Origin: Chloroflexota bacterium | GTDB lineage: Bacteria > Chloroflexota > Anaerolineae > Anaerolineales > Villigracilaceae | DNA: 64,000 bases | NCBI GenBank assembly: GCA_026390015.1 | Contig: JAPLGS010000139.1 | Location: 62,001 to 126,000, forward strand | Direction of reading: 5' to 3' | Shown here: piece after piece, positions 6,377-33,877 of the stretch | Position numbering within the stretch: the first letter of the stretch is position 1 | Layout of the letters: every line of letters starts with the position of its first letter | Translations under genes and position numbers: made by a program | The notes under the pieces: model-generated | What the model was told of the DNA's origin: nothing | Database searches by the model: none | The model's input: the letters and a program-made list of their open reading frames with translations, nothing else

Positions 6377-7795
6377 ATGGGTCAATTGAATTTTCTCTCA
6401 GAGGATGATGTCAAGCGAATACATAACGCCACGCTGCGAATCCTGAACGAAGTCGGTTATGTGTGGACGCACAAGGAAAGCCTTGAAATCTTAACAGGCG
6501 CGGGATGCAAGATAAAAGGCAACCGCGTATATTTTCCACCAGAGTTGGTGGAAGACAGCATCCAGAAAGCTGGGAAGCGCACCACCATCCGCGGGCGTGG
6601 CGGTATGACAAAGACACTCGGCGATGGAAATTTATATTTCCACAACCTCGGCGGCGCGCGTGATATTTATGACGCGAAGACGGGTAATCATCGCATTGCT
6701 CAATTGCAGGATGTGCGCGACTCGACACGAGTGCTCGATGCGCTTGAAAACTGTAACACCATCACGCCTTTCTTTACGCCGCAGGATGTGCCGGGCGAAT
6801 TAATGTCACTGGCAATGTACCGTCATGCGCTACCGTTCACCACAAAACCGCTTCAAGGTCCCGGTGTGCAATATGGCCCTGAAACCAAATTCGCAGTGCA
6901 GATGGCTGAAGTGATCGGGAACCCGAAAGAGGTTTTGACCCTTGCGCTTTCTCCTGTTTCCCCGCTCACCATCCCTGACCATGAAGCCGAGGCTGTGATC
7001 GAGATCGCGCGCGCGGGAATCGCATTCGGTGCTCTGCCCTGCCCCACCGCAGGCGCAACAGGACCAATGACGATCAGCGGATCAATCGCGCAGCAGAATG
7101 CAGAGACTCTGGCGGTGGTGATCCTTGCACAATTGGTAAACCCAGGCTTGCCGATCATTTATTGCGGACGACTTGCCATGATGGAACCGCGAATGGGCTC
7201 ATCAGTTTGGGGCGGCGTGGAATTGGGCCTCGCCTCGGCAGGAACGGTTCAACTTGGACATCATTATGGATTCACGGTCAACGTTTATGGGTTCTCCACG
7301 AATGCGCATACCATCGATGCCCAGGATGGATTTGAGCGCGGACTGAACGCAGCCATCCCCGCCCTGGCTGGAGCGGATGAACTCTCTGGCATCGGCGAAA
7401 TGGAAGCGGGCGTGATGGGTTCGTACGCGCAGATGGTTCTCGATAACGAATTGGCATCCAGCATTCTGCGATTAAGGCGCGGTTTCAGCGCGGATGAAGA
7501 CGCGCTTGGCGTTGACATCATCGCGGCGGTCATGGACGGCTCGCGCAATTTCCTCGGCCAAAAGCATACGATGAAATATCTAAAAGCTGGCGAAGTACAA
7601 TTGACAAAACTTGCAGAACGAAATTCCTGGGAAACCTGGGAACGGAAGGGGAAGCAGGGAATGGTGGAACGTGCCATTGATGAAGCTGAAAAGATTTTAC
7701 GCGAACATCAAGTGGAGCCGCTCGAGCCACAGCAAGAGCAGGAGCTTGATAAAATCATGGAAGCTGCGGAAAAAGAATTGGTGAAGAAAAGATAA
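6377..7795 (+). CDS. MttB-family methyltransferase, paralogue 4
   Basis: This 472-aa member of the trimethylamine methyltransferase superfamily starts at an ATG after AAAGGAG, 30 nt downstream of the S9 peptidase stop. It has no internal TAG. Its N-terminus (EDDVKRIHNATLRILNEVGY) matches the family pattern and is closer to paralogue 1 than to the 2/3 pair. The methyl donor is unknown; transfer to a corrinoid carrier is the family role. The M20 hydrolase gene follows 25 nt later, so peptidase, this gene, hydrolase and the pterin methyltransferase look like one transcript. Confidence 0.9.
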   Translation: MGQLNFLSEDDVKRIHNATLRILNEVGYVWTHKESLEILTGAGCKIKGNRVYFPPELVEDSIQKAGKRTTIRGRGGMTKTLGDGNLYFHNLGGARDIYDAKTGNHRIAQLQDVRDSTRVLDALENCNTITPFFTPQDVPGELMSLAMYRHALPFTTKPLQGPGVQYGPETKFAVQMAEVIGNPKEVLTLALSPVSPLTIPDHEAEAVIEIARAGIAFGALPCPTAGATGPMTISGSIAQQNAETLAVVILAQLVNPGLPIIYCGRLAMMEPRMGSSVWGGVELGLASAGTVQLGHHYGFTVNVYGFSTNAHTIDAQDGFERGLNAAIPALAGADELSGIGEMEAGVMGSYAQMVLDNELASSILRLRRGFSADEDALGVDIIAAVMDGSRNFLGQKHTMKYLKAGEVQLTKLAERNSWETWERKGKQGMVERAIDEAEKILREHQVEPLEPQQEQELDKIMEAAEKELVKKR

Positions 7796-23221: not shown

Positions 23222-23998
23222 CTAGGCCTCAGCCGTTTCCTCGTACTTCTCGCGCACCCAGTCATATCCCTGTTCTTCGAGATGCAGAGCAAGATCGGCG
23301 CCGCCTGATTCAACAATACGACCATCCAACATGATGTGGACGAAATTCGGTTTGATGTAATTCAACAGACGCTGATAATGCGTGATGACCAGCACTCCGA
23401 GATCAGGTCCAGAAAGAGCGTTGACTCCCTCCGAAACAATTCTGAGCGCGTCAATATCCAGGCCTGAATCGGTTTCATCTAAAATAGCCATTTCGGGCTT
23501 GAGAGCGGCCATCTGCAAAATCTCGGCACGCTTCTTCTCGCCGCCAGAGAAACCGTCATTGAGATAACGACCAGCGAAAGCGTGATCCATTTTGAGCATT
23601 TCCATTTTTTCCTTGAGCATTTTGCGGAACTCAAGAATGGGCATACCTTTGTCTTCAGGATTTACAGCCCGACGACGGGCATTCAGCGCTGTACGCAGGA
23701 AGTTCGCCACGGTCACACCAGGAATTGCGACCGGGTACTGAAAAGCCAAAAAGATGCCAGCGCGCGACCGCTCATCTGGTTCGAGTTCAAGAACATTTTG
23801 ATCTTTGAAAATGATCTCGCCTTCAGTTACTGTATAATTGGGATGCCCCATAAGGGTATAAGCTAGCGTAGACTTCCCAGTTCCGTTTGGCCCCATGATG
23901 GCATGGATTTCGCCCTGATTGATGGTCAATGAGAGTCCCTTGAGAATTTCTTTATCTTCGATGCTAACGTGCAGGTTTTTTATTTCAAGTTGCGACAT
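23222..23998 (-). CDS. sufC: SufC, ABC-type ATPase of the SufBCD complex
   Basis: SufC hydrolyses ATP to drive cluster assembly on SufB-SufD. The 258-aa protein has Walker [10 protein letters not shown] (residues 36-44), Q-loop [15 protein letters not shown] signature [11 protein letters not shown] and Walker [12 protein letters not shown]. It is the first gene of the leftward operon and is served by a consensus promoter at 24076-24104. A small hairpin (ACCGC-TTA-GCGGT, 24022-24034) lies in the leader. Confidence 0.95.
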
Positions 23999-24075: not shown

Positions 24076-24104
24076 ATTATAGCAGAATTAGGCTAATATG
24101 TCAA
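24076..24104 (-). promoter_or_regulatory. Sigma-70-type promoter of the suf operon
   Basis: On the minus strand, TTGACA (24099-24104) and TATAAT (24076-24081) are both perfect consensus with a 17-nt spacer. The -35 box overlaps the left end of the 30-bp element at 24101-24130, so a protein bound there would block the polymerase. Confidence 0.85.
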
Positions 24105-24130
24105 TATTTATGATATTTTTCTAGTATATT
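24101..24130. promoter_or_regulatory. 30-bp repeat element, copy A (candidate SufR operator at sufC)
   Basis: This stretch is identical at 29 of 30 positions, in the same orientation, to 27492-27521 upstream of sufR. It is built as TCAATAT-N4-GATA-N2-TTTC-N4-ATATT, a dyad with one arm slightly decayed in this copy. It overlaps the sufC -35 box. A shared SufR or Fe-S-responsive operator is the natural reading. Confidence 0.75.
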
Positions 24131-24250
24131 CGAACACACCGCCTCAAAATTGGGATTTGCTTCACTTTCGCAATAGAATAATACCGCAAATATAATAAAC
24201 TTAGGTTACATTTGGAAGAAATATACGGAAGCTTTTTACAAGGTGAATTA

Positions 24251-27200
24251 ATGAAAATGCCCTCATTCAAGCTCAGAATCATTTATTGGCTTGCCATCGT
24301 ATCATTATGGAGCGTAGGCGCCATTCTCCCTGCACAGACCATTGATACAGAGTCCACCGCATATAGCGATTCTGCTTTTCAAACGGGCAATATCGTATTT
24401 GCGGTTATTGGTGATTTCGGGGAAGCAGGCCAACCAGAGGCAGATGTTGCAAATCTCGTAAAGGCCTGGAACCCCAGTTTTATTATTACCGTCGGTGACA
24501 ACAACTATCCAAACGGCGCAGTTAGTTCAATTGACGAAAACATCGGTCAATATTATCACCAGTATATTTTCAAATACAATGGTAAATATGGAGACGGTTC
24601 GGCAGTTAATCAGTTTTTTCCAGCGCTTGGCAACCACGACTGGGACCAAAACAACGGCAGGCAGCAGGAACTCTACTTTACCCTGCCCGGCAATGAAAGA
24701 TATTACGATTTTATTCAGGGATCTGCTCATTTCTTTGTACTTAACAGTAACGTAACCGAGCCGGAGGGGGCTGATGTTAATTCAAAACAAGCGAAATGGC
24801 TGAAAAAGGCACTTGCAGCGTCAACGTCAAAATTTGATATTGTCATTTTGCATCACCCGCCCTATTCTTCTGGAAGACATGGCTCCACCACGAGGATGCA
24901 ATGGCCTTACAAATCCTGGGGAGCAGACGCGGTTTTGAGCGGCCATGATCACCTTTACGAGAGAATCCTTGTTGACGGATTACCCTACTTTGTAAATGGG
25001 ATCGGCGGAGCAGAAAGTTTATATAGATTCGAAAATGTAATCCCTGAAAGCAAATTCCGCTACAACCTGGATTATGGCGCAATGCGCGTGGAAGCTAATA
25101 ATCAGACGATGAAATTTCAATTATTTTCACGGGCAGGCGTTCTTGTTGATGAATATACGATCGGGAACGTCCCACCAGTTGTTACTTCGATTCTACGAGC
25201 AAGCCCTAACCCGACAAATTCTTCAAGCGTGGATTTTACCGTCACTTTTTCAGATGCAGTTTCAGGCGTGGATGTTTCCGACTTTAGCCTCGCGACAACT
25301 TCCCCAACTGACGCGTCCATCCTTGGAATTAGCGGATCTGGAATTCAATATACCGTCTCGGTAAATTCCGGATCCAGTGATAACACTCTCCGCCTCGACT
25401 TGATAGACAACGACAGCATCCTAAACAGCACCGGCGTTCAATTAGGTGCCACAGGAAATGGGAATGGCAATTTCATCAATGGTGAAATTTACAACATAGA
25501 CAAAACACCGCCGAGGGTTAGTTCCATCACCCGCGTGGGCGTCAGCCCAACCAACGCTTCAAGCCTGGACTTTTCGATCACTTTCTCAGAAGCAGTTTCA
25601 GGCGTCGACGCTTCCGACTTCAACCTCATCTCGACAAAAAACAGCGGTGCATCCATAAGCGGAATCAAAGGCGCGGGAACAACGTATATAGCAACCGTAT
25701 TTACCGGCACTGGCGAAGACACACTCCGCCTTGATTTTATTGACGATGACACTACAACCGACTTTGTAGGCAACAAAATAGGCGGTGTAGGTACGGGAAA
25801 CGGGAACTTCGCCGGTAATGAAACCTATAGTGTAGATAGAATTTCTCCCAAAGTGACATCCATCGTGCGGGCAAATTCCAGCCCAACCAATGCCTCAAAC
25901 GTGGATTTCATTGTCACATTCTCTGAGCCAATAACAGGGCTGGATACTTTCGCCCTTAATTTGTTTTCAACAAACAAGAACGGAGCCAGTAAATCTTCCA
26001 TCAGCAGCGTGAACGGGGTAGGCAATGTTTACAGCGTTACCGTAAACACAGACCTGAATGATGACACGATCCGCCTTGACTTAATCGACAACGACAGCAT
26101 CACCGACCTTATTGGAAATGCCTTGGGAGGAAGCGGCGAGGGAAATGGGAATTTTTATGATGGCGAGATCTACATAATGGATAAGTCTGTTCCATACGTG
26201 ACCTCAATCATTCGCGCCAGCTCCAACCCATCCAACTTAGCCAGCGTGAACTTCATCGTCACACTTTCTGAATCAGTGACAGGCGTGGATTTATCTGATT
26301 TCATTTTGTACACAACCAATATCAGTGGCGCTTCGATAACAAGCGTCAATAGCTTTGATCCATTTTATATTGTCGCTGTCAACACCGGCAGCGGCGATGG
26401 CGCGCTGCGCCTTGATCTTATTGACGACGACAGCATCACCAACGGCAGCAATCTTGGTGGGGTTGGCTTAGGAAATGGAACCTTTAACAATGGAGAAATT
26501 TATACGATCGACAAGACAGCGCCTATCGTGACTTCGATCATTCGAGCCAGCGCCAATCCAGCCAACTCAACCAGCGTAGATTTTATTGTTACTTTCTCAG
26601 AATCCGTTACAGGTGTGGATGTGGGGGATTTCAAATTAAACACCGAAAATATCAACAGAGCATCAGTTATCAGCCTGAATAGTCTCGACCCGTTCTTTGT
26701 CGTCACTGTGAACACCGGCATCGGGACCGGCAACCTTCGCCTTGATCAAATTGACGATGACAGCATTGCAGATAGCGCGAATAACAAATTAGGCGGCCTT
26801 GGCGCTGACAACGGGACGTTCAATACAGGCGAGGCTTTCAACGTCTCAAAAAGTTCCATTAATTTCCCTCCGCCTTCCAACCAAGAGCCTCGAAAAAACC
26901 TACTAACCAATAATTCAAACACATCCTTCGCATGGTCACGTGTTCGAGGCGGACTGGCTTACGAAATCATAATCGCAGCCGATATGAATTTCAACAATCT
27001 CATACTGAGTCGGACAGTGGACGGGACATCTTATACAGGAACCTCTTTACTCACCGATGGAACCTATTACTGGCATGTACGCGCTTATAATGAAAATTTT
27101 CAACCAGGCAAATTCAGCGCGACCTATTCTTTCACAATCGATACCATTGCACCGGCAACGCCAATTCCCACCAGCCCGCTAAATAAGGCATCAACAACCA

Positions 27201-27427
27201 GAAGACCCACATTAAAGTGGTCACCAGTTAATGAGGCGATAAATTATCAAATTGAAGTTGACAACAATTCCGACTTCTCGAGTCCAGAATTCAGATCTAC
27301 AAAACGGGCTGCATCCATTCGAACCTCCAACCTACCCAAAGGAGTTTGTTTCTGGCGAGTACGAACAAAAGACGCAGCAGGAAATTGGAGCAACTGGTCT
27401 GAGAGCCAATTAATAAATATCCAGTAA
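24251..27427 (+). CDS. Secreted metallophosphoesterase with five Ig-like repeats
   Basis: The 1058-aa protein begins with a signal peptide (basic MKMPSFKLR, then a hydrophobic run). A calcineurin-like phosphoesterase domain follows to about residue 300, with GDFGEAG, GDNNYP, GNHDWD, HHPPYSSGRHG and GHDHLYER motifs that bind two metals. Then come five repeats of roughly 110 residues, each with a VVTSI-RAS-NP start, a VDF-VTFSE-VTGVD core and a Leu-Arg-Leu-Asp block; they resemble bacterial Ig-like adhesion modules. The end has fibronectin-like segments. I chose ATG 24251 because AAGGTG precedes it; an upstream in-frame TTG at 24212 is less likely. The gene sits between the two 30-bp elements and splits the suf region. 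Confidence 0.88.
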   Translation: MKMPSFKLRIIYWLAIVSLWSVGAILPAQTIDTESTAYSDSAFQTGNIVFAVIGDFGEAGQPEADVANLVKAWNPSFIITVGDNNYPNGAVSSIDENIGQYYHQYIFKYNGKYGDGSAVNQFFPALGNHDWDQNNGRQQELYFTLPGNERYYDFIQGSAHFFVLNSNVTEPEGADVNSKQAKWLKKALAASTSKFDIVILHHPPYSSGRHGSTTRMQWPYKSWGADAVLSGHDHLYERILVDGLPYFVNGIGGAESLYRFENVIPESKFRYNLDYGAMRVEANNQTMKFQLFSRAGVLVDEYTIGNVPPVVTSILRASPNPTNSSSVDFTVTFSDAVSGVDVSDFSLATTSPTDASILGISGSGIQYTVSVNSGSSDNTLRLDLIDNDSILNSTGVQLGATGNGNGNFINGEIYNIDKTPPRVSSITRVGVSPTNASSLDFSITFSEAVSGVDASDFNLISTKNSGASISGIKGAGTTYIATVFTGTGEDTLRLDFIDDDTTTDFVGNKIGGVGTGNGNFAGNETYSVDRISPKVTSIVRANSSPTNASNVDFIVTFSEPITGLDTFALNLFSTNKNGASKSSISSVNGVGNVYSVTVNTDLNDDTIRLDLIDNDSITDLIGNALGGSGEGNGNFYDGEIYIMDKSVPYVTSIIRASSNPSNLASVNFIVTLSESVTGVDLSDFILYTTNISGASITSVNSFDPFYIVAVNTGSGDGALRLDLIDDDSITNGSNLGGVGLGNGTFNNGEIYTIDKTAPIVTSIIRASANPANSTSVDFIVTFSESVTGVDVGDFKLNTENINRASVISLNSLDPFFVVTVNTGIGTGNLRLDQIDDDSIADSANNKLGGLGADNGTFNTGEAFNVSKSSINFPPPSNQEPRKNLLTNNSNTSFAWSRVRGGLAYEIIIAADMNFNNLILSRTVDGTSYTGTSLLTDGTYYWHVRAYNENFQPGKFSATYSFTIDTIAPATPIPTSPLNKASTTRRPTLKWSPVNEAINYQIEVDNNSDFSSPEFRSTKRAASIRTSNLPKGVCFWRVRTKDAAGNWSNWSESQLINIQ

Positions 27428-27491
27428 GACCCATAAACATCTACAATATCCATAAATAATAAGAATAATATCGCTTCATTTGTCTCCGCGC

Positions 27492-27521
27492 TCAATATTT
27501 ATGATATTTATCTAGTATATT
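27492..27521. promoter_or_regulatory. 30-bp repeat element, copy B (candidate SufR operator at sufR)
   Basis: Same sequence and orientation as 24101-24130 with one difference. With its right flank this copy forms a longer dyad: TCAATAT-N4-GATA-TT-TATC-N4-ATATTGA, centred at 27507/27508, with perfect 7-bp outer and 4-bp inner arms. It overlaps the sufR -35 box, fitting autoregulation. Confidence 0.75.
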
Positions 27522-27548
27522 GACAATCCAAACCGACTTGGTTATACT
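27520..27548 (+). promoter_or_regulatory. Promoter of sufR, predicted leaderless transcript
   Basis: TTGACA (27520-27525) and TATACT (27543-27548) are separated by 17 nt. Only 6 nt separate the -10 from the ATG at 27555, so transcription should start at or next to the start codon. The spacer holds a small inverted repeat CCAA-N6-TTGG (27528-27541), which recalls the CAAC-N6-GTTG site reported for cyanobacterial SufR. Confidence 0.8.
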
Positions 27549-27554
27549 TGTCCT

Positions 27555-28178
27555 ATGAAATCAACGCGCGACAAGATATTACACACTTTATTATCAAAAC
27601 CCCGCTCCACCATTAATACATTAGCAGAGGCTGTTGGAATCAATCCAATTTCTGTGCGGCATCACCTCACAAACCTGCAAATGGAAGGATTGGTTGAAGG
27701 GCAAGAGGAACGGCACGGTGTAGGACGTCCGCGGTTGGTTTACACTTTGACAGATGAGGGCATGGAACACTTCCCCACCCGCTATATGCAACTTACAACA
27801 CGTTTACTGGCTCAGATGAAAGATACTATGCCGGGGCCGGTCGTGGCAAAGTTATTCAGCCAGATCGCAGAAGATATGGCCGGTCAGTATTCCAAAGATA
27901 TGCAGGGACTTAGTATGGAAGAACGTCTTGATTTCGTCAAAGAAATGTTGGGGCGTGAAGGCTTCACCGTTGAATGGGAGAAGAAAGATGGACAATACCA
28001 AATCCATGAAATTTCATGCCCTTATTATCAAATCGGGATCGCCCATCCTGAAGTATGCACTGTTGACCAAACCTTGATCTCTAAAATGCTGGCTTTGCCT
28101 GCCAATAAAGTTCAATGTATTTTGAGCGGCGCTGCGCATTGTACGTATGTAATCCAACCTGTTGAAGTAAATAACTAA
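27555..28178 (+). CDS. sufR: SufR-like Fe-S-sensing transcriptional regulator
   Basis: SufR represses suf genes when its own cluster is intact. The 207-aa protein has an N-terminal winged helix (residues 5-65, with VRHHLTNLQMEGLV and GVGRPRLVYTLT) and a C-terminal region with four cysteines, Cys155, Cys168, Cys188 and Cys196, suited to bind an Fe-S cluster. Linkage to the suf operon and the shared 30-bp element near both promoters support the call. sufT follows 16 nt later, so the two are co-transcribed. Confidence 0.87.
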   Translation: MKSTRDKILHTLLSKPRSTINTLAEAVGINPISVRHHLTNLQMEGLVEGQEERHGVGRPRLVYTLTDEGMEHFPTRYMQLTTRLLAQMKDTMPGPVVAKLFSQIAEDMAGQYSKDMQGLSMEERLDFVKEMLGREGFTVEWEKKDGQYQIHEISCPYYQIGIAHPEVCTVDQTLISKMLALPANKVQCILSGAAHCTYVIQPVEVNN

Positions 28179-28194: not shown

Positions 28195-28545
28195 ATGCCA
28201 GACACTGAAGTACAAGAAATCCAGTGGACACTCCACAAGACTTTCCCAGAACGCGTACAGGAAGTACGCGCCCGCCTCTCTGAGGTGATCGATCCTGAAA
28301 TTGGAATGAACATTATCCAGCTAGGACTGATCCGCGATGTCGAGATTACAGCTGAGGGAATCGGTCATGTCAAAATGATCCTCACCACACCATTTTGCCC
28401 TTATGGGCCAGCCATGATCGAAATGACAAAAGCCAAAGCGGTCGAAGGACTCAATATGCCTGTCAACATTGAAATGGGAATGGATATGTGGGACTTCTCG
28501 ATGATGGAAGACCCGTCCGCGCTGGACTGGGGAATGTACACATAA
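28195..28545 (+). CDS. sufT: SufT/MIP18-family (DUF59) Fe-S cluster assembly factor
   Basis: This 116-aa DUF59 protein has the family start VIDPEIGMNIIQLGLI and the LTTPFCPYGPAM block with its conserved Cys. Such proteins help mature or traffic Fe-S clusters. It sits downstream of sufR with an AAGGAG ribosome site and ends before a strong terminator. Phenylacetate degradation PaaD is a related family, but no paa genes are nearby. Confidence 0.88.
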   Translation: MPDTEVQEIQWTLHKTFPERVQEVRARLSEVIDPEIGMNIIQLGLIRDVEITAEGIGHVKMILTTPFCPYGPAMIEMTKAKAVEGLNMPVNIEMGMDMWDFSMMEDPSALDWGMYT

Positions 28546-29721: not shown

Positions 29722-29732
29722 GGAGAATGTTG

Positions 29733-31169
29733 ATGAAGAACCGCTTCCCTTCCTGGATTTTTGGACTGCTCGGCATTTTGTTGCTGATCCTCGTCCCTAT
29801 CCTTTATTTCCTGCCACGCACCCAGGCATCCACTGACCCTGCGGCGTACATCCCTACGAAAGCAGTGCATGTGGATCATAAAGATATTGTCAAAGGCGAA
29901 TTCAAAACAGGACAGGATGTGACCCGCGCCTGTCTCGAATGTCACGAAGACGCCGCGACCGATTTTATGAAAACAACTCACTGGACATGGGAATCAAAAG
30001 CTTTCGATGTACCATGGCGCGCTGACTCTGTGACGATCGGTAAGATAAATCAGATCAACAATTTTTGCATCGGCTCACAAGGCAATGAAAATAAATGTAT
30101 GTCTTGCCACGCTGGCTATGGCTGGGAGAACGGAAAAGAATCAGTACTTGCCAGTCAAGAGAATGTAGATTGCCTTGCCTGTCACGCGGACTCTGGCGCG
30201 TACGGCAAAGGCATATTTGGCAACCCCGCTGACGGCGTAGACTTGCTCGCCGCCGCGCAAAGTGTGCGCGCCCCGACACGCGAGAATTGTGGAAAATGTC
30301 ACTTCGATGGCGGCGGAGGCAACGGCGTCAAACACGGCGACCTTGATGAAAGCCTATACTTCCCTCAAAAAAATCTTGATATCCATATGGGCGGCGAAGC
30401 CAACATGCAATGCACCGACTGTCACGTGACAAAAGATCATCAAATTTTAGGGCGTATGCTCGCGGACAATTACACCATCGATCCGCAAGAACAAGTTTCC
30501 TGCGAACAATGCCATGTAAATCAAAAACATAAAGATGAACGCATCAATACTCATCTTTCTGCGGTTGCTTGTCAAACCTGTCATATCCCCGCGATTGCAC
30601 TCGAAGATCCAACCAAAGTCAAATGGGACTGGTCGCAAGCGGGTCAGGAAGGACGCACAGAGGATCATTTCACATATCTAAAGATCAAGGGCGAATTCAC
30701 TTACGAAAAGAATTTCAAACCCACGTATCTCTGGTTCAATGGCAACAATGAATATCGCTATATCCTCGGCGACAAGGTCAGCGCAAACGGCCCGACCTAC
30801 ATCAATAAGCCCGCAGGCGATATCAAAGATACCCGCGCAAAGATATTCCCCTTCAAATTACATATCGCCAAACAGCCGTACGACACAGTAAATAATTATT
30901 TACTGCAACCTGTCACCTCTGGTAAAGGCGGCTTCTGGACCACCTTCGATTGGAACAGCGCCTTCGAACTCGCCGCGCCAATCACAGGCCTCGATTACAG
31001 CGGCCAATATGGTTTTACAGAAACCTATATGTACTGGCCGACAACTCACATGGTTCAATCTGCCGACAAGGCGTTGCAATGCGACTCTTGTCACGGTGAA
31101 TCTGGCCGCATGGATTGGGAAGCCCTCGGCTATCCTGGTGATCCAATTGAATGGGGCGGGAGAAAATAA
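29733..31169 (+). CDS. Octaheme c-type cytochrome, tetrathionate reductase (OTR) family
   Basis: The 478-aa protein has an N-terminal membrane anchor or signal (residues 8-28) and eight CxxCH heme sites (near residues 67, 122, 147, 186, 227, 257, 280 and 452). The segments GKINQINNFCIG, CMSCHAGYGW and the C-terminal RMDWEALGYPGDP are typical of the Shewanella octaheme tetrathionate reductase family, whose members also reduce nitrite and hydroxylamine in vitro. ATG 29733 is preferred over 29727 because AAGGAG is then correctly spaced. It acts outside the membrane. The next gene, 2 nt on, supplies a plausible electron donor. Confidence 0.9.
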   Translation: MKNRFPSWIFGLLGILLLILVPILYFLPRTQASTDPAAYIPTKAVHVDHKDIVKGEFKTGQDVTRACLECHEDAATDFMKTTHWTWESKAFDVPWRADSVTIGKINQINNFCIGSQGNENKCMSCHAGYGWENGKESVLASQENVDCLACHADSGAYGKGIFGNPADGVDLLAAAQSVRAPTRENCGKCHFDGGGGNGVKHGDLDESLYFPQKNLDIHMGGEANMQCTDCHVTKDHQILGRMLADNYTIDPQEQVSCEQCHVNQKHKDERINTHLSAVACQTCHIPAIALEDPTKVKWDWSQAGQEGRTEDHFTYLKIKGEFTYEKNFKPTYLWFNGNNEYRYILGDKVSANGPTYINKPAGDIKDTRAKIFPFKLHIAKQPYDTVNNYLLQPVTSGKGGFWTTFDWNSAFELAAPITGLDYSGQYGFTETYMYWPTTHMVQSADKALQCDSCHGESGRMDWEALGYPGDPIEWGGRK

Positions 31170-31171
31170 CC

Positions 31172-33877
31172 ATGAAACGCTACTCACTCCTCTCACTTGC
31201 TGGACTTCTTATCCTCGTGCTTGCATTCGGAATTAGCACGGTTCTCGCCTCGCCCAAAGCTGTTCCTGAACAACAGGCATCTCCCCTGCATCCGAATTTT
31301 ATCCTGCTCGATGTAAATGATGTAAATGTGTTGGAAAGCAAAAATGCAGTTTCAACTATTAAAACCTGCGGACAGTGTCATGATACAGAATTTATTACGT
31401 CACACGCATTTCACGCTGACTTGGGACTGTCTGATTACGCGGCCTCCAAAAAATCATGGGATGCAAGCACAGGCACGTTCGGACAATGGAATCCACTCAC
31501 CTACCGCTTCCTCTCTCAGAGCGGCGATGAACGGCTTGACTTATCCACTGCTGAATGGCTGATGTTAAACGGTGAACGTGTCGTTGGCAGCGGCCCTGCT
31601 ACAACGTCTCGTGATGGAAATTTACTTGCGGCCGCAAAAGCAAGCGAAACCAATCCTGAAACTTCCCTGCTTGATTCAAATGGCAATGTCATAACCTGGG
31701 ATTGGAAAAAATCTGGCACCATGGAAATGAATTGTTTCCTTTGTCACCTTGAAGCTCCAAACACTTCCGCTCGCGCAGACGCGATCCATGCTGGCGAATT
31801 TGGCAAGGCAAACACAGCCACTTTACTTGGCTTAAACATCGTCAGTGAATCAGTTGACGGGTGGACCTGGAATGCAGAATCATTTACCGAGGCTGGCGAA
31901 CTCAAAAGTGAAAAACTTGGCATTCAGGATCCGACCAATTCAAACTGCGCTACCTGTCATGGTGAAGTACATCCCGATACGGAAGAGCCACTCACCGTCA
32001 GCGCCTGTGACTTGAATTATCCGCAGACCGCTACAACGGGACAAGTTGTCAGCGGACAACGCATTTCTAATTCTGGCGTAAACCTGAGCGGCAAGGAAGC
32101 TCTCACCCGCTCGTGGGATGTCCACGCAGAACGACAATTGCAATGCACAGATTGTCATTATGCGCTCAACAATCCCGCACATATCAGCGAAGCGCAGAGC
32201 AACAACCCTGAGCATTTAATCTACGATCCGCGCTCTTTGGAAATTGGCGAATATCTACAGCGACCCGATCATAATTTTGCGCGCGGACAAAGTGCGCAAT
32301 TCAACGTAGCACCAGAGTACAAAGGCACGATGCGCCGCTGCGAAAATTGTCACGACGCCAACAAAGGGCACGCTGACTGGCTGCCCTACATAAAGACTCA
32401 CATGGACTCGGTCGCATGCGAAACCTGTCACATCCCACAGATGTATGCACCCGCTATTCAAGCATACGACTGGACAGTCATTACTCCTGATGGCAAGGCT
32501 GTCGAATCCTGCCGCGGGGTGAATGGAACTCCCAACAAAGTCACATCGCTCATTACAGGTTACAAACCAGTATTATTAAATCGCACAAATATTGACGGAC
32601 AAAAATTACTGGCTCCATATAACTTGATCACTTCCTTTTATTGGGTCTATGACGATGCGAATAACAACAAACGCCCCGTTCGCCTGATCGATCTTGAATC
32701 AGCATATCTTGAAAACGGAAATTACGCCGCCGATATTGTTACCGCATTTGACTCAAACAACGATGGAAAAATAAGCAGCGCGGAGCTTATTCTTAACTCT
32801 CCAGTGAAAGAGATGACTGTCAAATCAAAACTAGTTGCGCTTGGGTTGGAGAATCCGCGTATTGAAGGCATGGTTCAACCATACAGTATCAACCACAATG
32901 TCGCTCGCGGAGCAGACGCGGTCAACGAGTGCAAAGCCTGCCACGCCGATGAGTCGCGCGTATCGCAGTCTATCAAGCTGGCAGAATTCGCTCCTGTAAT
33001 GCCTATCTTTGACGCTGCTAATAATGTCAACGGCAGCGGCGAGATCGTAACAGGCGAAGATGGTGCGCTATATTATCAGCCGATGCCGTCTAAAGATAGT
33101 ATGTATGTATTCGGTTCAAGCCGTGTTAGTTGGATCGATTGGTTCGGCACGATCGCGTTCGCGGGTTCGCTTTTAGGTGTGATCGGGCATGGGACGCTGA
33201 GATATTTCTCATCCAAAAAACAGCCGAAAGGTCAGGTAAAAACCGAGCGTGTTCATATGTACGAACCGTATCGCCGCTTCTGGCATTGGCTGCAAACGAC
33301 ATCCATCGTCATGCTGTTATTTACAGGTCTAATTATCCATAGACCTGATATCTTCGGCGCGTTCTCTTTCCGCGGCGTGGTGACAGTACATAATGTGCTT
33401 GCGGTCATCCTTGTTGTCAATGCTGCCCTCTCGTTTTTCTATCATATTGTCACTGCACGCATTCAGGAATTCATCCCGCGACCCTACGGATTCTTCGACG
33501 ATGCGATCATTCAGGCAAAGTATTACATCAGCGGAATTTTCAAAGGCGAAGCACATCCGTTTGAGAAGCTGCCAACCAGCCGCATGAACCCCATTCAGAA
33601 AATGACCTATTTCATGATATTGAATGTGCTATTGCCGCTTCAGATCATCACAGGCGCGATCATGTGGAGCGTACAAAAATGGCCTGAATTTGCAAACGCT
33701 CTGGGAGGGCTGCCATTCCTGGCACCTTTCCACTCACTCGTGGCGTGGATGTTCGGCACATTTATTCTTGTCCATGTATATATGACGACCACTGGCGCAA
33801 CTCCGCTTGAAGCGATGCGCGCGATGGTAACTGGTTATGAAGAAGTGGAAGTACATGAAAGCAAGGATGAAGCCTAA
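31172..33877 (+). CDS. Heptaheme cytochrome c fused to a cytochrome b (b561-like) membrane domain
   Basis: The 901-aa protein has a signal peptide, then seven CxxCH sites (CGQCH, CFLCH, CATCH, CTDCH, CENCH, CETCH, CKACH), and an EF-hand-like loop DSNNDGKISSAE near residue 526. A membrane segment lies near 653, and a cytochrome b561-type bundle at about 700-880 has heme-ligand histidines in RRFWHWLQ, HNVLAV and HVYMTTTG. It probably takes electrons from menaquinol and passes them to its own c hemes and to the octaheme partner. It starts 2 nt after the octaheme gene. Confidence 0.88.
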   Translation: MKRYSLLSLAGLLILVLAFGISTVLASPKAVPEQQASPLHPNFILLDVNDVNVLESKNAVSTIKTCGQCHDTEFITSHAFHADLGLSDYAASKKSWDASTGTFGQWNPLTYRFLSQSGDERLDLSTAEWLMLNGERVVGSGPATTSRDGNLLAAAKASETNPETSLLDSNGNVITWDWKKSGTMEMNCFLCHLEAPNTSARADAIHAGEFGKANTATLLGLNIVSESVDGWTWNAESFTEAGELKSEKLGIQDPTNSNCATCHGEVHPDTEEPLTVSACDLNYPQTATTGQVVSGQRISNSGVNLSGKEALTRSWDVHAERQLQCTDCHYALNNPAHISEAQSNNPEHLIYDPRSLEIGEYLQRPDHNFARGQSAQFNVAPEYKGTMRRCENCHDANKGHADWLPYIKTHMDSVACETCHIPQMYAPAIQAYDWTVITPDGKAVESCRGVNGTPNKVTSLITGYKPVLLNRTNIDGQKLLAPYNLITSFYWVYDDANNNKRPVRLIDLESAYLENGNYAADIVTAFDSNNDGKISSAELILNSPVKEMTVKSKLVALGLENPRIEGMVQPYSINHNVARGADAVNECKACHADESRVSQSIKLAEFAPVMPIFDAANNVNGSGEIVTGEDGALYYQPMPSKDSMYVFGSSRVSWIDWFGTIAFAGSLLGVIGHGTLRYFSSKKQPKGQVKTERVHMYEPYRRFWHWLQTTSIVMLLFTGLIIHRPDIFGAFSFRGVVTVHNVLAVILVVNAALSFFYHIVTARIQEFIPRPYGFFDDAIIQAKYYISGIFKGEAHPFEKLPTSRMNPIQKMTYFMILNVLLPLQIITGAIMWSVQKWPEFANALGGLPFLAPFHSLVAWMFGTFILVHVYMTTTGATPLEAMRAMVTGYEEVEVHESKDEA

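Follow-up and report, generated by a model that had tools for sequence, protein, structure and literature searches.

Twin upstream elements at the sufC–sufR junction in a clade of Anaerolineales: a probably old duplication, changing gap genes and apparent returns to a single element

Two bacterial systems offer the closest described parallels to the locus analysed here. In Synechocystis, according to the excerpts of PMC6034842 that were consulted, sufR is divergent from sufBCDS and the region between holds two SufR sites, of which the one by sufBCDS has high and the one by sufR low affinity; the cyanobacterial site is given as CAAC-N6-GTTG in the consulted parts of PMC8593673 and PMC13421787. 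In Mycobacterium, sufR (Rv1460) heads the suf operon, and its product carries C203, C216 and C244, spaced X12 then X27 (same excerpts of PMC6034842). The present study concerns a stretch of 64,000 nucleotides (the window) from a Chloroflexota bacterium of the order Anaerolineales, family Villigracilaceae (assembly GCA_026390015.1, contig JAPLGS010000139.1, positions 62,001 to 126,000, forward strand), in which sufC and a divergent sufR-like gene are each preceded by a copy of the same 30-bp element, with a metallophosphoesterase gene lying between the two copies. As a whole, the locus and its relatives are best explained by an old duplication of the element, divergence of the copies, later arrival of genes in the gap (cargo) and repeated collapse to a single element, a history that we regard as likely.

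So far as those excerpts allow the comparison, the window resembles Synechocystis in the divergent arrangement of sufR and suf genes and in having two separate sites between them, which are SufR sites there and predicted ones here. It differs in that the element, instead of CAAC-N6-GTTG, is another, A+T-rich dyad, present as near-identical direct repeats with a fixed base difference and with foreign genes between. With Rv1460, the regulator of the window shares the spacing of three cysteines (C155, C168 and C196 here), but its gene is divergent and has its own promoter, whereas the mycobacterial gene stands at the head of the operon. Full-text searches of PMC brought up no listing on a twin-element arrangement in Chloroflexota, which is not proof that it is unpublished.

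The repeated element and its facing promoters

Copy A, or sufC copy (24101-24130, forward strand), and copy B, or sufR copy (27492-27521, forward strand), were first reported in a first-pass annotation made from the letters of the window, and they are indeed identical at 29 of 30 positions and in the same orientation. Their sole mismatch, T at 24119 and A at 27510, falls within the 24-bp cores (24107-24130 and 27498-27521). Since a 29-bp core pattern finds two matches in the window with up to three mismatches and none in 100 shuffles, the repeats are beyond chance. The annotation had also assigned to each copy one perfect -35 box on its outer edge, which the coordinates bear out. At copy A only, the sufC promoter (24076-24104, reverse strand) has TTGACA at 24104-24099, separated by 17 bp from the -10 box TATAAT at 24081-24076 (12 of 12 consensus positions); at copy B only, the sufR promoter (27520-27548, forward strand) has TTGACA at 27520-27525 and, after 17 bp, TATACT at 27543-27548 (11 of 12). 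Across six aligned genomes the sufC -10 box and the element are identical, and the sequence rightward of the element is unalignable. The same annotation had joined the left edge of A to the right edge of B into one symmetrical operator built around GATA-N2-TATC with a -35 box at each end; the two boxes are found in compact relatives, but the right half reads TTTC rather than TATC in 18 of 19 single elements.

An insert flanked by direct repeats recalls a transposon or similar element that entered with a 30-bp target-site duplication. Such an origin is rejected here as extremely improbable. Three pairs of inverted repeats were found, all inside the insert and none framing it, and no transposase domain was detected in the phosphoesterase of the window or in 18 cargo proteins scanned from other genomes, in line with what the annotation had noticed in the letters. 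The repeats are, moreover, a conserved promoter element that lasts across the whole family while the cargo changes.

Two-copy and single-element states among relatives

The genus-level group comprises 57 genomes (designated by G numbers, G000 being that of the window), which were scanned genome-wide with up to three mismatches. The element is present in 54 of them, the exceptions being G010, G014 and G049; in a wider set of 41 genomes a 27-bp pattern is matched in 23, all of which belong to the genus, and a control pattern (the element read backwards) gave zero matches in either set. Two copies were found in 32 of the 57 genomes: 13 have direct copies on one contig, spaced by 0.2 to 16 kb with sufC and sufR facing across the gap, two have inverted copies 50 and 195 kb apart, and 17 have them on different contigs. 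In 16 genomes sufC and sufR are adjacent and share a single intervening element flanked by two -35 boxes. One copy of a separated pair was seen in six, and no copy in three. Widely separated sufC and sufR genes still have one copy each, which suggests that a copy works for the promoter it adjoins. The scan located the element at sufC and sufR only, and not at other promoters, bar one 3-mismatch match each in G046 (C37), G053 (C5) and G059 (C297), away from these genes, which may represent chance or a third regulated gene. G015 (95% complete) has no sufR match, yet it retains an element with one mismatch at sufC; perhaps the assembly lacks sufR. In G054 (L106, 4200-12900), a run of small genes spanning about 8 kb, among them PIN-like toxin-antitoxin candidates recognised by eye, separates the phosphoesterase from sufC, and was perhaps the route by which sufC and cargo became separated.

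Alignment of the sufC–sufR region, the check that the annotation had proposed, revealed uninterrupted relatives with one element, a -35 box at both ends and no phosphoesterase between the two genes. When the window is compared with G022, homology forms two blocks, one running leftward from 24130 and the other rightward from 27492, which overlap on the 30-bp element of G022; the same pattern is obtained with G044, where the overlap falls exactly on the 30-bp element. Likewise, the blocks of G094, whose gap holds other genes over 2.7 kb, and of its close sister G106, which has a single element, overlap on 28 bp, with flanks 85-93% identical. The single element of G042 and G063 matches the sufC core of the two-copy relatives G005 and G050 throughout, and then continues with GACAGG like the sufR side of G050. 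Single elements mostly combine a sufC-type core with a sufR-side flank; that of G106 has an A-type core behind a sufC-type left flank. These junctions are compatible with an exchange at either end of the element.

Recombination is generally able to delete the DNA between two short direct repeats. The present case resembles such deletion in that two near-identical repeats become one and the intervening DNA is gone, but differs in that the repeats are apparently functional promoter elements under selection, and recombination is here a presumed mechanism.

The base that distinguishes the copies of the window was surveyed in 82 genomes, in which sufR copies were selected by a trailing GACA and sufC copies by a left TCAA. 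T occupies position 13 of the 24-bp core in 43 of 44 sufC copies and in 18 of 19 single elements, and A occupies it in 60 of 61 sufR copies; the exceptions are G107, G106 and G046. An A at this position completes an inner pair of the dyad, which is paired in 59 of 61 sufR copies compared with one of 44 sufC copies. GACA trails all 61 sufR copies, this being their selection criterion, and the base directly after the sufC core is C in 34 of 44 copies and G in one. In the 42 genomes that show both copies, the two agree on average at 23.1 of 26 core bases. The T/A split is also present in tandem genomes without cargo, which points to one old duplication. In G046 (L096), the sufR copy at 6809-6832 is the only one of the 61 with T, and its 24-bp core does not differ from that of the sufC copy, perhaps owing to recent conversion.

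Age of the duplication and exchange between locus halves

Further relatives were drawn from 78 loci, including repeats of genomes already designated, 28 of which were used as additional genomes. In four of them, G098, G100, G101 and G103, which are basal sister lineages, two elements lie 56, 57, 56 and 47 bp apart, respectively, with no gene between; they are also close in G087 (60 bp apart) and G090 (324 bp apart). In a tree built from the rpoB genes of 80 genomes (no rpoB was recovered from G043, G045, G058, G107 and G108, and the partial one of G070 was left out), G098, G100, G101 and G103 sit in the first branch of the ingroup. G096 carries two complete rpoB genes on adjacent contigs, so that its assembly may be mixed. 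Under a two-state model on this tree, two copies have a probability of 0.98-0.99 at the node of the ingroup and of 1.00 at that of the genus-level group. State changes number at least 10; a single gain entails nine losses, and 23 gains are needed if losses are barred. One clade of the 14 genus singles having rpoB is rejected on rpoB (p 1.3e-5), one clade of all genus singles is rejected on sufBC and on sufRT too, and joining G022 with G044 and G019 is rejected on rpoB (p 0.011).

The cargo-free tandem sister genomes, the state reconstructed on the rpoB tree and the shared copy-specific base thus argue for an old duplication that did not depend on the phosphoesterase gene, which it probably predates and which is unlikely to be its cause. 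Since two-copy lineages surround the singles inside the clade on the tree, most of these look like reversions rather than the ancestral form, about nine in number if the two-copy state was gained once. The first-pass annotation had proposed a recent compact ancestor with a single element, split by an insertion of the phosphoesterase that duplicated the element, so that compact relatives would be uninterrupted ancestors. Relatives of exactly the predicted structure exist, close relatives do not all carry the phosphoesterase and both elements, and distant families (G026, G028, G029, G030, G031, G036 and G040) have adjacent sufC and sufR without cargo. This proposal is nonetheless quite unlikely: sister lineages hold cargo-free tandem elements, the same gap carries other cargo in other genomes, the copy-specific base is common to the clade throughout, and compact forms are nested among two-copy ones. 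What stands is the existence of compact relatives, and not the insertion as the cause of the duplication; the alternative that the annotation had mentioned, a duplication kept for co-regulation with no insertion event, comes nearer to the evidence.

In the history that we favour, the element would have duplicated early in the clade (Anaerolineales, probably Candidatus Villigracilaceae), so that each promoter came to own a copy directly upstream of its -35 box, and the copies would then have diverged at one position, to T at sufC and A at sufR. Genes would later have come to occupy the gap, the metallophosphoesterase here and others elsewhere, with swapping of cargo. As the copies remain nearly identical direct repeats, the gap would be removable by recombination between them, which seems to have occurred about nine times and to have left a single element with a -35 box at each end; exchange with incoming suf DNA may also have removed or replaced what the gap contained.

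Exchange between lineages is supported as a second force shaping the locus by the trees of its two halves. At G067, G001/G068, G013/G053 and G050, the sufBC and sufRT trees disagree with each other as well as with rpoB. A grouping of G013/G053 with G012/G024 is incompatible with sufBC (p 1.6e-6), sufRT rejects the clade that G001/G068 belong to on rpoB (p 1.2e-5), and G067 groups with G066 on sufBC, a grouping that sufRT also rejects (p 1.7e-6). These conflicts indicate that the locus halves were exchanged separately. Single forms could stem mainly from horizontal replacement of the suf locus, or of half of it, by alleles of compact donors rather than from local deletion. Apart from the conflicting histories of the halves at G013/G053, G001/G068 and G067, this would fit the GACAAACT that follows the element in 12 of the 16 genus singles and is not seen in the split sufR copies compared. 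On the other hand, G022, G044 and G042/G063 retain the local sufR-side flank of two-copy relatives, G106 and G094 are close rpoB sisters and collinear, and the singles do not form one clade on either half of the locus. We consider replacement a rather improbable main source of the single forms.

Several points weigh against the duplication-first history. A-type singles (1 of 19) are fewer than random crossovers would give, so that selection or transfer must be invoked; the excess of T-type singles could reflect selection at sufC or the spread of the compact allele marked by GACAAACT. The G094+G106 node is undecided (probability of two copies 0.49-0.53) and the G057-G056 node favours a single element (0.16-0.18), and hence some regains or transfers are possible. 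The ancestral-state count treats as two-copy those genomes in which the genes are unlinked or a lone copy was seen, the deeper outgroups are long branches, and G104 and G105, intended as outgroup, fell inside the ingroup of the rpoB tree. The tandem forms, here taken as probable precursors of the cargo-bearing one, could instead be relics of lost cargo, which would leave the order of events unproved. In this respect, the 227-bp gap of G067 gave weak matches to phosphoesterase C-termini (best E 0.012-0.033), and was dropped as a clear remnant of that gene. Finally, SufR binding and regulation are predictions from sequence.

Gap genes, candidate regulator and implications

In the window, the gap holds a gene for a secreted metallophosphoesterase with Ig-like repeats (24251-27427, forward strand; 1058 residues from the ATG at 24251; PF00149 2.1e-14, PF19078 1.6e-10), preceded by a possible promoter (24167-24196, forward strand; TTCGCA, 18 bp, TATAAT) whose basis is its consensus match (10 of 12). 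Genes in the gap or next to the element vary by species and encode phosphoesterase, S-layer, UbiA, MauE or DUF4332 types. S-layer cargo proteins carry beta-propeller, GSDH or FG-GAP domains, and UbiA genes stand alone or together with ApbE and RnfD-type genes; elsewhere, a MauE-containing set or a DUF4332 gene is found. A phosphoesterase homologue occurs in 32 of the 57 genus genomes, in ten of which it lies between two copies on one contig, and G042 and G063, with their single suf element, hold it elsewhere in the genome. Phosphoesterases of suf loci form one large group, which includes several relocated ones and has weak root support (67/97). Those of G000, G008, G016 and G046 are each other's nearest, which fits inheritance in that clade with loss in G022 and in G044/G019.

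A finer view of cargo exchange is given by G021 and G061, a near-identical pair with identical sufR genes. Homology between them stops 2 bp past the sufC core and the first cargo gene differs, one genome having 3.6 kb where the other has a different 1.7 kb; from a shared S-layer domain on, they are 98.8% identical. This looks like the exchange of a whole upstream gene up to the S-layer domain, a domain-anchored shuffling. Cargo genes of G021 (L051, 4268-14317) and G061 (L115) have S-layer-homology 3' ends that are about 72-98% alike, within and between genomes. We can tentatively propose, as a possibility still short of probable, that the functional promoter elements act as the fixed homology arms of a recombinase-free gene-exchange site, where cargo inside an essential pair of divergent promoters is swapped, lost and regained across the family, each promoter keeps its specialised copy, and the sufC–sufR junction is the place where the locus halves change partners.

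The genes on either side were assigned as follows. Leftward, sufC (23222-23998, reverse strand), encoding the iron–sulfur (Fe-S) cluster assembly ATPase, scores 371.5 bits with TIGR01978 (cut-off 212.8) and is the first of the leftward suf genes, followed by sufB. Rightward, the winged-helix regulator gene (27555-28178, forward strand) is followed by a SufT-like (FeS_assembly_P) gene (28195-28545, forward strand; PF01883 6.8e-13). Downstream of the suf genes, a pair of neighbouring long genes (29727-33877) with many CxxCH-type motifs looks, by eye, multihaem cytochrome-like.

The regulator reaches 80.9 bits over 198 residues with TIGR02702, the cyanobacterial SufR equivalog, below the curated cut-off of 178.8, and is therefore termed SufR-like. 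Its four cysteines (155, 168, 188 and 196) are kept in 59 of 59 aligned genomes; C155, C168 and C196 have the ligand spacing of Rv1460, and the gene context agrees with that of a SufR gene, sufC and sufR being adjacent in 16 and facing across a gap in 13 of the 57 genus genomes. The cyanobacterial site was ruled out as the identity of the element: CAAC-N6-GTTG has no match in either copy with up to one mismatch allowed, and the window holds 22 one-mismatch matches for 26.1 expected.

Most likely, the element is an upstream control element of the two facing suf promoters and, as predicted from its conservation and position, the binding site of the adjacent SufR-like protein. UP elements, which RNA polymerase contacts, lie immediately upstream of the -35 box, and the A+T-rich element holds that position at both promoters; given also the missing cyanobacterial motif and the score of the protein, it could be of UP type, or the site of another regulator. 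Such an identity is unlikely in view of the 24 bp that are nearly invariant across genomes at sufC and sufR, of the copy that each gene retains when the two are separated by 50 or 195 kb, of the dyad-like structure, in which the sufR copy has the more complete inner pairs, and of the adjoining gene, the product of which has the Rv1460 cysteine spacing. If the SufR-like protein does bind, the two copies may share a division of labour as in Synechocystis, with two sites of different affinity and the T/A base setting the difference.

Divergent suf and sufR genes, two SufR sites and deletion between repeats are each already known singly, so that the interest of the locus outside the suf field is moderate. 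It does illustrate that what looks like a perfect insertion footprint can be produced by a conserved regulatory element, with no transposon involved. For this family, the locus would amount to a replicated natural experiment, in which a shared divergent control site gave rise to two specialised sites and back again; the fixed T/A difference predicts unequal affinities of the copies, and both states occur in close relatives.

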